Shown here piece by piece: positions 1 to 33,205 of a DNA stretch of 64,000 nucleotides. Source of the stretch: Bugula neritina (Eukaryota > Bryozoa > Gymnolaemata > Cheilostomatida > Bugulidae). The DNA is taken from the NCBI GenBank assembly GCA_964035545.1, contig OZ037773.1:4633251-4697250 (forward strand), in the 5' to 3' direction. The notes under the pieces were generated by a model, which was not told the origin of the DNA, ran no database searches, and was given only the letters and a program-made list of their open reading frames with translations. A program made the position numbers and the translations under genes. Each line of letters begins with the position of its first letter. Position 1 is the first letter of the stretch.

Positions 1-1345
1 CCTGGTAATGTCTCTGATTGCCATGATTATAAGTAGTGCATTGGGTAAGTTGACATTTAATTTATATTGTATATATGAAGTGTGTGATTTTTGTCTGTAT
101 TAACAAACTTACACAGTTGGCTGTTGTTTGATGTAATATATTAGGTAAATTAAGTGTTTCTCAAGGTGAGTGAAAAATTAACTCTTTTAATATTGTTTGT
201 TGTCCAGAAAAAAGTTTTGCATAAAATGAATGTGCATAACGTAACACACACACACACACACACACACGCACACACACACACACACAAACGTGTGTATAAT
301 ATATCTATACTGTGCTGTACATACTGTGTGTATATTTATTTACTAGCTGTCTGTACATATAATGTATATATGTATATATACATATATACATAATATGTAT
401 ATATGTATATAAATATATATATAAATATATATATATATATATATATATATATATATATATATATATATATATATATATATATATATATATGTATATATAT
501 ATATATATATATATATATATATGTATATATGTATATATATATATATATATATATATATATATATATATATATATATATATATATATATATATATATATAT
601 ATATATATATATATATATTTATATATATATATATATATATATATTATAAATAGGTATACGAGAAACATTGTTATTTATTACTTTATTATGTAAAGTAATT
701 ACACTGATATTTCGGGTACCACTGTACCCATCTTCAGAAGATGGGTACAGTGGTACCCGAAATATCAGTGTAATTACTTTACATAATAAAGTAATAAATA
801 ACAATGTTTCTCGTATACCTATTTATAATCAAATTACTAGCTCGTAAAGATATATTTAAATATATATATATATATATACATATAAATATATATATATATA
901 TATATATATATATATATATATATATATATATATATATATATATATATATATATATATATATATATATATATATATATATATATATGTATATACATATATA
1001 CATACTATGTATATATGTATATGTATATATATATGTGTGTAGTTATTTGTTATATCTAGCTTAGATTATTCACAATTTGCTTGTGTCTGTTCATTTTATA
1101 TAGTGAACAATGACCGACTAGCCAATGTTAGAGTAACAGTTGGTAAAACTGACACCAACTTTGCCAATCCACCAGAAAATGAGATCTGTGACTACCTTCC
1201 TGGACGACCACCAGCAGTTATATTTCTGGTTACATGTCACACTAGAATGTATGGTAGATATGTGAGAGTAACAGCTGTAGAAGTGAATGATTTTTTGACC
1301 ATTTATGAGTTGGAGATTCATGGACAAAAACCATTTAGTAATTGA
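1..1345 (+). CDS. Secreted F-type lectin (fucolectin) half-domain protein, 5' end cut by window
   Basis: Two exons are read: 1-44 (donor gtaagt at 45) and 1104-1345 (acceptor tatatag). Exon 1 gives [15 protein letters not shown], which lines up codon for codon with the 17-codon signal exon of the peptide genes downstream; the window starts inside codon 3. The phase-1 junction gives Val, then about 80 residues ending at TGA... read as [13 protein letters not shown]. The domain part has [10 protein letters not shown], a Cys in [10 protein letters not shown], a Cys in FLVTCH, then [10 protein letters not shown] and the closing YELEIHG, the pattern of the C-terminal half of fucose-binding F-lectin domains. 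The N-terminal half (usually about 60-70 residues more) is absent unless an exon was missed in the microsatellite-filled intron. A polyA signal AATAAA lies at 1497-1502. Fucose binding is inferred from family, not shown. Confidence 0.7.
241..290. repeat. (CA)n microsatellite
   Basis: About 50 bp of CA repeats with one cg interruption, inside the lectin intron. The apparent reading frames here are repeat translations. Confidence 0.95.
360..1045. repeat. Two long (TA)n arrays flanking a 187-bp perfect palindrome
   Basis: TA/TATG arrays run about 360-642 and 855-1040 in the lectin intron. Between them, 643-829 reads the same on both strands around a single central base (a736): arms of 93 bp with no mismatch that I can find, containing ATTTCGGGTACC and CCCATCTTC next to the centre. 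The three hydrophilic frames found over this stretch are repeat shadows. Confidence 0.95.
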
Positions 1346-2527
1346 AATTCTGATGATGTTGTACATTATTGAAATGTTTGTGTGTAACATAATATATTTG
1401 CGCGTGGGTGTGTGGGTTCGTGGGTGCGTGGGTGCGTAGGTTCATGTGTGCGCGTCATTCAAGTTTTAATAATATTCACTAAATTATGATCAACAAAATA
1501 AATAGATATCTCGACAATAACCTAATTTTTCTCGTGCAAATGTAACACAGAAGTGACAAAATTAGATTTCTAGTTTCTAAAATTGGCCTTTGTCATTGAG
1601 TAGTCGCATACATTCTACCTTATTTAGCAGTAGATTTGTAACTGAAGTTCTAGTTGAAGCAAGAGAACAAAGTAGTTATGCAAACTGCTGTTCATTCTTT
1701 TCTCAAATTTAGTTATAAGAGTTGAAACTCTGAAAACTTGTTGAATCCTAATTCCGGACAAAACATGTTCGCAATTATGTTAGCTAGGGTTCACCCATCA
1801 TTTTCCATAAATCATCATAACTGCTTAAAAAGCCATCTTTACATCCATATATTATAGTATTTCATGTTAATAATGTTTATAATATATAATATACATGTGC
1901 AATTTAGAAAGTGCTGATAAATATTCATTTGAATAAATTTTTATATATAATTTGAATCATTTTTGTACTGTTTGTTAATTAATTTCTGGGTAAATCTAAT
2001 AAAGGTTTGGCAGTTTACTAAAATAATATATATCCAAAGTTCAAATTTAATGATTTAATCAAAGTTGAGAGAAGTATAACCTTAGGTATGTAGGCTTTTA
2101 TTGGTCAAATGTTAGTTGCAATCTAAATAATAACAAATTGAGGGGTAACATTCATAACACCCATGCAAAGCACAACAATGTAATAGAACTAAGATTAACA
2201 GTTTTTTATTTATTATTATTTATGTTGTGTAAATATAGCAGCTAAAGAAATCTAAACTTGTGGTATTGTATGTTTTTAGCCTATATTATATAACTGTTGG
2301 TTAAAACTTCTTATATATCTGAAATGACACACGTGACTTATTCATATACAAGATTTGATTTGCTTTATTGCATGCTACACAAAATATACTAAAAAACAGA
2401 AAAACTATTTTTCAGAATTTTTTTTTATTAAATAACAACATTGAGAGCAGAGGTCCAGTTTAGGTAAAAATAGGTTAACTATTTTTACAAATTTCCCAAA
2501 TATGTCATCATGTAATTAATACTCATA
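1346..2527. other. Intergenic, no gene seen
   Basis: Contains the lectin 3' UTR, a degenerate GGGTGCGT-like minisatellite at about 1400-1455, and AT-rich unique sequence. A minus-strand AATAAA (plus TTTATT, about 2425-2430) probably serves the next gene. Confidence 0.6.
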
Positions 2528-2928
2528 TTATCTTCTTCCTTTGCAAAAATTTTTGCAAATAACTCTGAACTTAGGAAGTCTATAAGCGGCCACTGTCACT
2601 GAACCTGTGAAATGTTGACAAATTGCTTAAATTATTGCAACAGCATTATATATTGAAACTTTGCAAATTTTGTGCTTTTATTCTTGTAGCCAATAACAGA
2701 TATAGCAAATAAATACTTAAGTAGTAATATTTATCATGCATGTTTAGTAAGTGTTTGTACATTATATAAAGCTGTTTGTATTGTTTATGATTGTTTATAT
2801 TTATCCTTCGAAAAGATTTCAAGTTGAAATAAATCTTTCTATTTCTATAAATTTAACATTGGAATTTCCTACTTACCTAATGAAGTTATGGCAATCATCA
2901 TGATGAGAAACAAAGCAACAACTTTCAT
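2528..2928 (-). CDS. Short secreted cationic two-cysteine peptide
   Basis: Coding exons are 2877-2928 (52 nt) and 2528-2604 (77 nt), minus strand, donor gtaagt and acceptor tttcacag. The product has 42 residues. Signal exon MKVVALFLIMMIAITSL is followed across the phase-1 junction by GSVTVAA, then the likely mature peptide YRLPKFRVICKNFCKGRR: 18 residues, strongly basic (Arg/Lys 8), one C-X3-C pair that could form a small disulfide loop. Size, charge and secretion suggest a host-defence peptide; no named family is recognised. A plausible 5' UTR exon ends at 3250 (donor gtacat) with TATA-like sequence near 3343-3350, and a minus-strand AATAAA sits about 100 bp past the stop. This member is too short for ordinary ORF finding. 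Confidence 0.7.
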
Positions 2929-4297
2929 ATCTGATTTGTGTCTAGAAATTTAATATTAAACATACTAAACAATATATATATATATCATTATTTTAAAATA
3001 GACTGAAATATACTATAAATATAAAAAAGGTTGCATGGTTCTTGAGTTGTTAACACTATGTTTCTTTTAGATATTTTTGTGATTGCAATATTATTAGTGA
3101 AAAGAAAAATTACCCGATGAGTAAACATACTTAGTGATCACCAATAGAAAATGTTCAGCATTGTCAAACTTATTAAACTATACCAACTTCAATAAATCAC
3201 ATGTTTTGAATATGCCAATGAGTAAAAGTGAATGTATTTTTATATGTACCTGTTTCTTGTAAAACAATTATAATCAGTTACTACACAGCTGTTATAGTGA
3301 ATATAATATAGATGCATTTGCCTTTATAAAATATGTAGTCTACTTATATATGTTTTTTTACCTAGAATAGTTCTTATAACTTTTAATCAATTGGCTTACT
3401 GCCAATATCAAGGGGTAACATAGTTAATTTAACATTACTTTTAGTATGGTAACTTGATCGCAATAACTGCAGAACAATAATTTACCACTAAAATCTGAAA
3501 AACATGCATATCCGCCTATATTAAGAGAATTTGGTTTTGCATTAGGACAATGCAGCTGATCTATAAAAAGGATAGTTTTATAGAGGTATCTAGTCAGTCA
3601 ATTTAGCATAAGATGAGATTTTAATAAAAAATAACCCAAATATAGCATCAATGTTAGGTATAAGATCCTCGTATTTCTAGGATATAATGTGCCTCTGATA
3701 AATTATATAAATATATGCATGTTTATAACTGTGATCAAAATGTTTCCTCAAGCAATTTCGTGTTAAATCCTTGAGAGCATAGTGCAGTATGCCTTCTCTG
3801 GGTTTTTGATTTTTTCCACAGCATAACTGGGCATGGAGAAGATGCCTGATTTTTTATACTGGATATGATTTTTTTTCTATAGTTGTTTCTATATATACTG
3901 CTGTTTTGTCGTCGATTAGTATTCTTTTCTCTTTAAATTTTGGACCTGCCAAGATCAATTGCATTCATCCTATTTCTGCATATGTGCCTTAAAGATTTTA
4001 TACCTTAATTAGTGCTATGTTCGGGAGAGATACTCTAAAGTATATATTGCTAATTTAACGCTTAAACTGGAAGCAGAAAATCTTCAATTCATAACAGAAT
4101 ATTATAGGACTTCAGAAAAGTTTCAAATTTGTTGTGTTGGTTATTATAGATGACTAAGATAATAAAGCAAAGCAGTTTTTTGGTCGTTATGAAAATTCAT
4201 GCTGTAGAATAAAAGCCACTCTAATTCTACATGCATACATCAATTTGAATAAAGAGGCACTAACATATTCCTAAATCTCTATAGAAGCAACGTCAAA
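2929..4297. other. Intergenic, probable promoter of the two-cysteine peptide gene
   Basis: The first 400 bp hold the intron, 5' UTR exon and TATA-like sequence of the minus-strand peptide gene. The rest is AT-rich and shows no exon that I can support. Confidence 0.45.
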
Positions 4298-32400: not shown

Positions 32401-32599
32401 AAGTTTATGTAATTATTTATAGTGAAGCCTAAATATAATGTATAAATTAGCAAGTTGATACAATATTGAGAGAATAGTATTTTAAAACATATTTCAATAT
32501 AGTTTACCTACATTCATATTATTTAATTCATAATTTACACCCAATTCAATAGCTTTACATGCAAAGACACAATTATTTATTTATAGAAACATTATCAAC

Positions 32600-32963
32600 A
32601 TGAAGGTTCTTGCTGTAGCTGTAATTGCCATGATTGCCCTCAGTGCATTGGGTAAGTTGAACTTATTTTATATTATTAGAAATTAAAATAAAAGAAAAAG
32701 CTATTTACAAGGAAATACTAATTCTAGTTGCATAATATAATTTATCTCAATACTATCATCTAATAATGACTTCATACAAAAAATAGTGTTTTTGTGAAAT
32801 ATTAAACTACTTTATAAATTTTTCAACAGTTTCAGTAGCAGAGGCTGGCCATGGAGGTCATGGAGGTCATGGAGGTCATAAAGGTCATAGAGGTCATGGT
32901 TATAGAAAGTCATACTACAGGAAAGGATACAACTATGGAAATAAACGTTATGGCAGATATTAA
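32600..32963 (+). CDS. His-Gly repeat secreted peptide
   Basis: Coding exons 32600-32651 (52 nt) and 32830-32963 (134 nt), donor gtaagt, acceptor ttcaacag; 61 residues. Signal MKVLAVAVIAMIALSAL is followed by VSVAEA, then the mature part GHGGHGGHGGHKGHRGHG and a basic tail YRKSYYRKGYNYGNKRYGRY. The tail matches the Gly/Tyr peptide (GGYRKSYYRKSYRY...), so the His-Gly block looks like an insertion by repeat growth at the cleavage site. Six His in GGH/GH spacing could bind Cu(II) or Zn(II), and the tail is strongly cationic. The 5' UTR is in two exons (to 31660; from 32587). The 3' UTR has CTTTGACCTGGACACC and AATAAA at 33100-33105. Antimicrobial or metal-binding roles are inferred. Confidence 0.85.
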
Positions 32964-33205
32964 CCAACTTGCTTGGCTGCCAAACTTTGACCTGGACACC
33001 ACCTCCACTCGCTACTTTGAGCTTGCGATTTCATCAAACTTACAATTTTAATTTTTTTCCAGATTCTAAATTTGTCTCTAACTGATATGTATATCTCACA
33101 ATAAAAATGTTTTTTTCAGCAAGTTAAAGAATGGCATTTTGACAAACATGCAGAAACTGAATATAGAGCATGAATTTTATTGAGTCTCAAAGCAGAACAC
33201 CATTT

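Follow-up and report, generated by a model that had tools for sequence, protein, structure and literature searches.

A 64,000 nucleotide (nt) stretch of the Bugula neritina genome (contig OZ037773.1, on chromosome 9, C9:4633251–4697250; hereafter the window) is one edge of a gene family located mainly at C9:4.31–4.67 Mb; outlying members are found on C1 and at other places on C9. This edge probably belongs to a multigene locus that evolves by birth and death and encodes secreted cationic defence peptides, with the window genes lettered A to G. An earlier description of the window, made from its letters only (the sequence-only reading), had proposed a cluster of small secreted peptide genes in which a single kind of signal exon is combined with swapped mature exons. 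The family stands, and the window holds only part of its locus, which extends along C9. In the favoured reading, an ancestral gene for a cysteine-stabilized alpha-beta (CS-alpha-beta) defensin would have been duplicated and its core then remade, with His-Gly repeats added through expansion of a 9-nt unit. The peptides would act as membrane-active or otherwise antimicrobial agents. The C-terminal half of an F-lectin domain would have gained a signal exon of the family type by deletion or recombination, with the main junction in an intron.

Conserved ends and a variable core

Six complete signal exons lie where the sequence-only reading had placed them (Table 1). Each begins with ATG and spans 52 nt (17 codons plus one base), each is followed by a GTAAGT or GTGAGT donor in phase 1, and positions 1–44 are the 3′ portion of a seventh. 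Mean pairwise identity among the six is 0.71, compared with 0.406 when codons are shuffled (2000 sets; highest set mean 0.472). All 15 pairs fall at a null p ≤0.004, so that the signal exons align better than chance and not merely as random leaders would. The mature parts listed by that reading are also present: an F-lectin half exon, a CxxxC basic peptide, two Gly/Tyr/Lys peptides, two six-Cys peptides and His-Gly repeats. They had been described as having no common sequence, which is contradicted at both ends of exon 2. A related signal-peptide remainder opens this phase-1 exon in genes C and D (both ASVAEA), E (AAVAEG), F (ASAADA) and G (VSVAEA), with at most a weak trace in gene B, and a tag in the 3′ untranslated region (UTR) is common to C, D and G. 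Splicing of the signal exons to the second exons as drawn, and secretion with signal cleavage after ASVAEA, are predicted from these features.

The common layout extends upstream of the signal exon. A TATA box followed by a short 5′ UTR exon and a donor is found within 1.5 kb upstream in 17 of 24 family genes. The same arrangement occurs in 147 of 2000 random 1.5-kb segments of the cluster (the genes themselves included) and in 0 of 2000 from window 34–64 kb. Under looser rules the count is 18 of 24 genes, with 297 (cluster) and 65 (window 34–64 kb) in the controls.

The 3′ UTR tag is a 17-nt sequence, TTGACCTGGACACGACC, located 23–30 nt past the stop codon. Between representatives of the CS-alpha-beta, Gly/Tyr/Lys, His-Gly and Arg/Pro classes, exon 1 agrees at 38–48 of 52 positions, the exon-2 leader at 13–15 of 17 and the tag at 15–17 of 17. 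When tested in 25 exons, the tag was better than shuffles in 16 (p ≤0.005, 0 to 5 mismatches). Genome-wide, it occurs at 25 places with at most one mismatch, versus 1 in the control; 18 of these at C9:4.43–4.67 Mb and 2 on C1 are beside family exons. The other 5 (three on C3, one each on C7 and C8) are taken as unrelated because the 1.1–1.7 kb stretches around them showed neither a family leader nor a signal exon upstream. Between linear and array CS-alpha-beta genes, signal exons score z 7.7 to 24.6, cores z −0.8 to 2.3 and introns z −0.2 to 1.0. Thus, the tag has been kept while adjoining non-coding DNA has lost its likeness, as the tag agrees and the introns do not. No DNA similarity between CS-alpha-beta and linear cores was found at the core 3′ end (p ≥0.066 in 9 of 9 comparisons).

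The mature core and the 3′ UTR occupy one exon, and a replaced exon 2 would lose the tag; the diversity of the tagged classes therefore arose inside exon 2. At the level of sequence, the flanks show that the gene bodies of the array CS-alpha-beta, Gly/Tyr/Lys(-His/Gly) and Arg/Pro classes derive from a common ancestor. This bears directly on exon exchange as the general mechanism, in which one signal exon is joined to the mature exons of other genes. Such exchange could account for the phase-compatible junction of gene A (about 151–161), where a defensin-type signal intron meets an F-lectin gene, for the signal exon at C9:4422495, which precedes two complete mature exons, and for the 8-Cys exon and some others that have neither ASVAEA nor the tag. 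It is distinctly unlikely as a general rule, given that the exon-2 leader and the tag are common to the array CS-alpha-beta, Gly/Tyr/Lys, His-Gly and Arg/Pro genes, and that all 16 genes of a reduced set have as their nearest signal exon one from their own mature class (permutation p = 0.001; for this comparison His-Gly was merged with Gly/Tyr/Lys, and the Cys-containing genes were treated as a single class). Exchange of one exon, which the sequence-only reading had offered as a source of diversity, is accordingly unsupported as the general mechanism, the exon-2 start and 3′ UTR being homologous across the tagged classes, and is supported at sequence level for the F-lectin fusion at 1–1345.

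Within the tagged classes, the core may have changed either by substitution with insertions and deletions, or by replacement through conversion. A special form of the latter, in which the leader and the 17-nt tag serve as homology arms (or the tag as a dedicated site) for exchanging whole cores, is unlikely. If such cassette exchange were true, a defensin gene would have become linear Gly/Tyr/His and Arg/Pro genes with leader, promoter and 3′ UTR untouched.

The wider family and its defensin array

The genome searched comprised 215,847,546 bases in 295 contigs. The published assembly, tzBugNeri2.1, has a stated size of 216,009,554 bases, distributed over 320 scaffolds (PMC11480708; this and the papers cited below are represented by excerpts), and the searched copy is without a few small ones. 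A genome-wide search for the signal exon, as the sequence-only reading had proposed, recovered a dispersed set: a 35-place pattern with at most two mismatches gave 21 matches versus 0 in a reversed control, of which 16 are on C9, three on C1 and one each on C4 and C7. The C4 match is without a phase-1 donor and the C7 match is outside the matrix list described next. A matrix trained on 17 of the 30 listed exons, and applied to the collected stretches only, found these 30 places; a phase-1 donor follows 28 of them, of which 25 are 52 nt and 3 are 55 nt long. The gene table holds 24 of the 28, including A4596 with its short exon 2; left out were C9:4311966 (exon 2 enters a TA repeat), 4588952, 4612980 (fragment only) and gene B. 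When used as a DNA query, the gene G signal exon gave 14 matches including itself (13 on C9, 1 on C1), among them C9:4608597, missed by the matrix scan. A leader pattern matched at 31 places versus 1 in the control (28 on C9, 2 on C1 and 1 on C8); two of its C9 matches (3.195 and 3.215 Mb) pointed to more Cys-containing exons. Searches against Rfam returned nothing at gathering thresholds.

Three same-leader genes (L041–L043) are located at C1:19.73–19.76 Mb and encode an Arg/Pro-rich linear peptide, ASVTEA-KGKNRRPRPSGENSYPGFNGSIIK, as two copies and a divergent third; the exact tag is present in two and a changed tag in the third. On the minus strand of C9:4421231–4422495 (L023/L037), two defensin exons, both complete and different from each other, come after the signal exon and are candidate alternative mature exons.

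The main family member is a cationic CS-alpha-beta defensin in tandem array, for example ASVAEA-SYGCPKYPSKCKKYCKGKGYNSYKCSGSSCKCLKYHGK. Its exon has 39 genome-wide matches at E ≤10, the best 21 of which (E ≤1.4e-10) are all at C9:4.42–4.58 Mb. Six cysteines with CxxxC and CxC are found in array genes, in E and F and in the gene at C9:4621354; there are fewer in A3253 and A3259 and more in the 8-Cys gene (C9:4624431). Of two peptides modelled, the array defensin (predicted local distance difference test, pLDDT, 82.5) and that of gene E (71.9), both have a helix followed by two strands.

Rates of change were compared in 8 array genes. In the mature part, A4577 differs from each of six close copies by 18 replacement and 1–2 silent changes (replacement divergence, dN, 0.23; silent divergence, dS, 0.05–0.10), at an intron distance of 0.11–0.17 and with 2–6 changes in the 69 positions of the leader. 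For the copies at 4422495 compared with the array, dN is below dS. Episodic selection in the array is thus suggested, not proven.

Several results weigh against the defensin-derived locus proposed here. The tag is absent in 9 of the 25 exons (E, F, 4621354, 4624431, A3253, A3259, A4320, A4333 and A4596), so that end-to-end homology applies to the tagged classes only. None of four defensin-like precursors reached the curated Pfam cut-offs, the best being Scorpion_toxin_alpha-beta at 23.6 bits against 27 (queries with one extra Gly); comparison with the sequences of solved structures gave weak matches (lowest E 0.03), and nothing reached E ≤0.001 in Foldseek. Among the six close array copies, dN in the mature part is 0–0.04, with an intron difference of 0.07–0.15. 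Fisher tests of A4577 versus A4474 gave p = 0.087 with silent sites and p = 0.017 with intron sites, where the intron count is estimated from distance, the values are uncorrected and the pairs are non-independent. Given the low replacement rates in the six close copies, change appears episodic, and the idea that mature parts are hypermutable everywhere fails in the same copies. The rapid divergence offered by the sequence-only reading holds for at least one array copy, with most compared copies conserved; its defence-type locus, with a conserved leader and divergent cationic mature parts, is upheld as the probable reading. The argument from the tag does not extend to the untagged genes, including E and F, in which exchange may have played a part; their shared leader and six-Cys pattern speak for descent over exchange.

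Function is a separate matter. Cores rich in Gly, Tyr and His are also typical of structural and metal-binding peptides, and B. neritina hosts bacterial symbionts; both facts would suit secreted peptides with a matrix, adhesive, metal-binding or symbiont-controlling role in place of an antimicrobial one. Such a role is rather unlikely in view of the strong positive charge of the peptides and their common descent with CS-alpha-beta defensin-like genes.

Gene A and the F-lectin exons

The 8-Cys gene at C9:4624431 aligns through its signal exon and intron with positions 1–151 of the window at 91 % identity, and an F-lectin gene at C9:4.587 Mb matches positions 161–513 (69 %) and 936–1400 (83 %). 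About 10 nt of the end of the exon for the N-terminal half of the domain (N-half), together with its donor, seem to be retained at the junction. As judged from these alignments, gene A is a signal-exon capture, with a predicted product consisting of a signal peptide and half a lectin domain. A complete F-lectin domain (N-half plus C-half) is not present, as no N-half exon was found in the window. Since the 5 kb left of the window reads N, an N-half farther left is possible.

A working fusion and a relic are about equally likely. As a relic, gene A would have arisen when the signal exon landed in an F-lectin intron, or when a deletion killed the gene, and would have no working product. The missing half of the domain points this way, as the half that is left may be non-working; an N-half exon precedes the C-half in 8 of 9 other loci examined, including the C9:4.587 Mb gene; and the left flank is unreadable. 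The exception among the loci is L006, with no N-half in 1.5 kb of upstream DNA; L008 has an N-half, but one that contains a stop. Against a relic, the reading frame is open, the phases are compatible and the C-half shows conservation (dN/dS 0.28 versus the 4.587 Mb copy), though this divergence may be older than the fusion.

The F-lectin C-half exon has at least 93 genome matches including itself, 52 of them on C8, in a family found on C8, C5, C3, C6 and C9. In the 1.5 kb upstream of six F-lectin exons on C8, no signal exon of the 52-nt type was found, with one 67-nt candidate at L007. Four further copies, one on C5, one on C8 and two others on C9, likewise showed none upstream. In the close F-lectin pair L004/L005, dN/dS is 2 over 8 changes.

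Window genes, neighbours and known systems

The features of the window are collected in Table 1; the second His-Gly exon, the 5′ UTR exons behind TATA boxes and the possible signal exon at 4298 are additions to the list of the sequence-only reading. For gene D, the precursor is predicted to read MKVLAVAVIAMIAFSAL-ASVAEA-GGYRKSYYRKSYRYHGNKHYGKYY. The His-Gly peptide of gene G corresponds to a Gly/Tyr/Lys core with inserted repeats, its core aligning with that of gene D (z 15).

Table 1. Features of the peptide genes in the window (positions in nt from the first letter of the window)
Feature	Position	Strand	Remark
Gene A signal exon, 3′ part, cut by window edge	1–44	+	94 % over 72 nt to signal parent
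Gene A junction, defensin-type signal intron to F-lectin gene	151–161	+	From alignment
Gene A F-lectin C-half exon, phase 1, with stop	1104–1345	+	89 % amino acid identity to C9:4587115 copy
Gene B short exon 2	2528–2604	−	GSVTVAAYRLPKFRVICKNFCKGRR; truncated defensin-like, keeps only CxxxC before stop
Gene B signal exon	2877–2928	−	MKVVALFLIMMIAITSL; paralogue C9:4588952(−)
Possible degenerate signal exon with in-frame stop	4298–4354	+	Read by eye, no matrix hit, uncertain
Gene C 3′ UTR tag	5533–5549	−	TTGACCTGGACACGACC; 0 mismatches
Gene C exon 2	5573–5664	−	ASVAEAGGYRKSYYRKSYRYHGNKHYGKYY
Gene C signal exon	5779–5830	−	
Gene C TATA box and 5′ UTR exon	6505–6585	−	Inverted duplicate of gene D stretch
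Gene D TATA box and 5′ UTR exon	9850–9930	+	
Gene D signal exon	10506–10557	+	
Gene D exon 2	10647–10738	+	Peptide identical to that of gene C; 91 % inverted duplicate
Gene D 3′ UTR tag	10762–10778	+	1 mismatch
Gene E exon 2, six-Cys, CS-alpha-beta-like	12331–12473	−	AAVAEGEKATTTCRLFCKPVCISKFFTRGVCNGSKCTCSRRGYFPIG; helix-strand-strand model; without tag
Gene E signal exon	13445–13496	−	MRLVAVIVIAMILISQM
Gene E TATA box and 5′ UTR exon	13980–14049	−	
Gene F exon 2, six-Cys peptide	17160–17299	−	ASAADAGLFRWLCRKTCTKSQCPGKVYSKPKCSRGGICKCWKKDAL; without tag; Myticin-prepro E 0.0013, below cut-off
Gene F signal exon	18031–18082	−	MRVLVLLAIKMLVIGLL
Gene F TATA box and 5′ UTR exon	18553–18626	−	
Tag putatively assigned to the broken second His-Gly gene, across transposon	21092–21108	−	2 mismatches
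Second His-Gly exon 2, broken by transposon	28540–28716	−	Outside the list of the sequence-only reading
Gene G TATA box and 5′ UTR exon	31605–31660	+	
Gene G signal exon	32600–32651	+	
Gene G exon 2, His-Gly repeats then Gly/Tyr/Lys core	32830–32963	+	
Gene G 3′ UTR tag	32987–33003	+	TTGACCTGGACACCACC

Gene B is probably degenerate, and a defensin-like exon near its paralogue (C9:4588515–4588634) contains stops. A link between the stretch at 4298 and the exon at C9:4597107 is not claimed, the match being only 59 %. Upstream of the second His-Gly exon no intact signal exon was seen and there was no matrix hit. Duplication, decay and clustering of this kind are usual in birth-and-death families.

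The transposon inside the second His-Gly exon is about 7.4 kb long (about 21141–28536, ends placed by eye). It has inverted arms of 634 nt that are 97 % complementary and an open frame of 1462 codons, with a weak Tesmin/TSO1-like CXC match near the C-terminus (E 0.16). A 275-nt inverted repeat (11522–11796 and 18839–19113, 96 % complementary), part of which recurs at 7937–8074, is probably a dispersed repeat. Neighbours at 35000–64000 include a cytochrome P450 fragment and a rhodopsin-type receptor; a reading frame at 46601–47011 has no Pfam match.

A common signal exon combined with different mature peptides, the mark of export-exon families, is found here. In the antimicrobial peptide cluster of pipid frog skin, 15 genes in both orientations, with pseudogenes, span about 380 kb (PMC3731216). 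The bryozoan family resembles it in the common leader region, the different mature peptides and the pseudogenes. The frog source was a hormone gene (cck) with RXXR-type processing, whereas the main bryozoan member is a CS-alpha-beta defensin, with no such processing noted and with a 17-nt tag (PMC3731216). The myticalins of mussels likewise have a 5′ UTR exon first, a hypervariable cationic linear core between conserved parts, and pseudogenes; however, their signal and mature parts are in one exon with an anionic C-terminal propeptide, whereas the bryozoan genes have a separate signal exon and include disulfide-rich defensins (PMC5577615). Scorpion venom genes also have a phase-1 intron near the signal cleavage site and include CS-alpha-beta and linear peptides of the same layout (PMC5308243). 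Exon shuffling in scorpions was inferred mainly from intron phase; in the bryozoan, the flanks oppose shuffling in the tagged classes and a junction shows it in one gene (PMC5308243). The mytilins and other bivalve CS-alpha-beta peptides form a multigene family on the same scaffold, for which exon shuffling has been raised as a hypothesis; the mytilins differ in having four exons and an anionic extension (PMC7168163).

In the parts of the literature on bryozoan defence peptides that were covered, no description of the locus was found, which is not proof of absence. The general idea is already known; new, as far as searched, are a common 3′ tag by which folded and linear classes can be assigned to one lineage, and the sequence-level capture of a signal exon adjoining the family. 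Folded and linear defence peptides would be traceable through their flanks to one gene lineage, in a phylum with little immune genomics. Core divergence can therefore be told apart from exon shuffling, a distinction left to inference in the scorpion and mussel papers, and the F-lectin junction would be a direct example of a captured signal exon. The peptides are candidates for the management of bacteria by a symbiont-bearing bryozoan.

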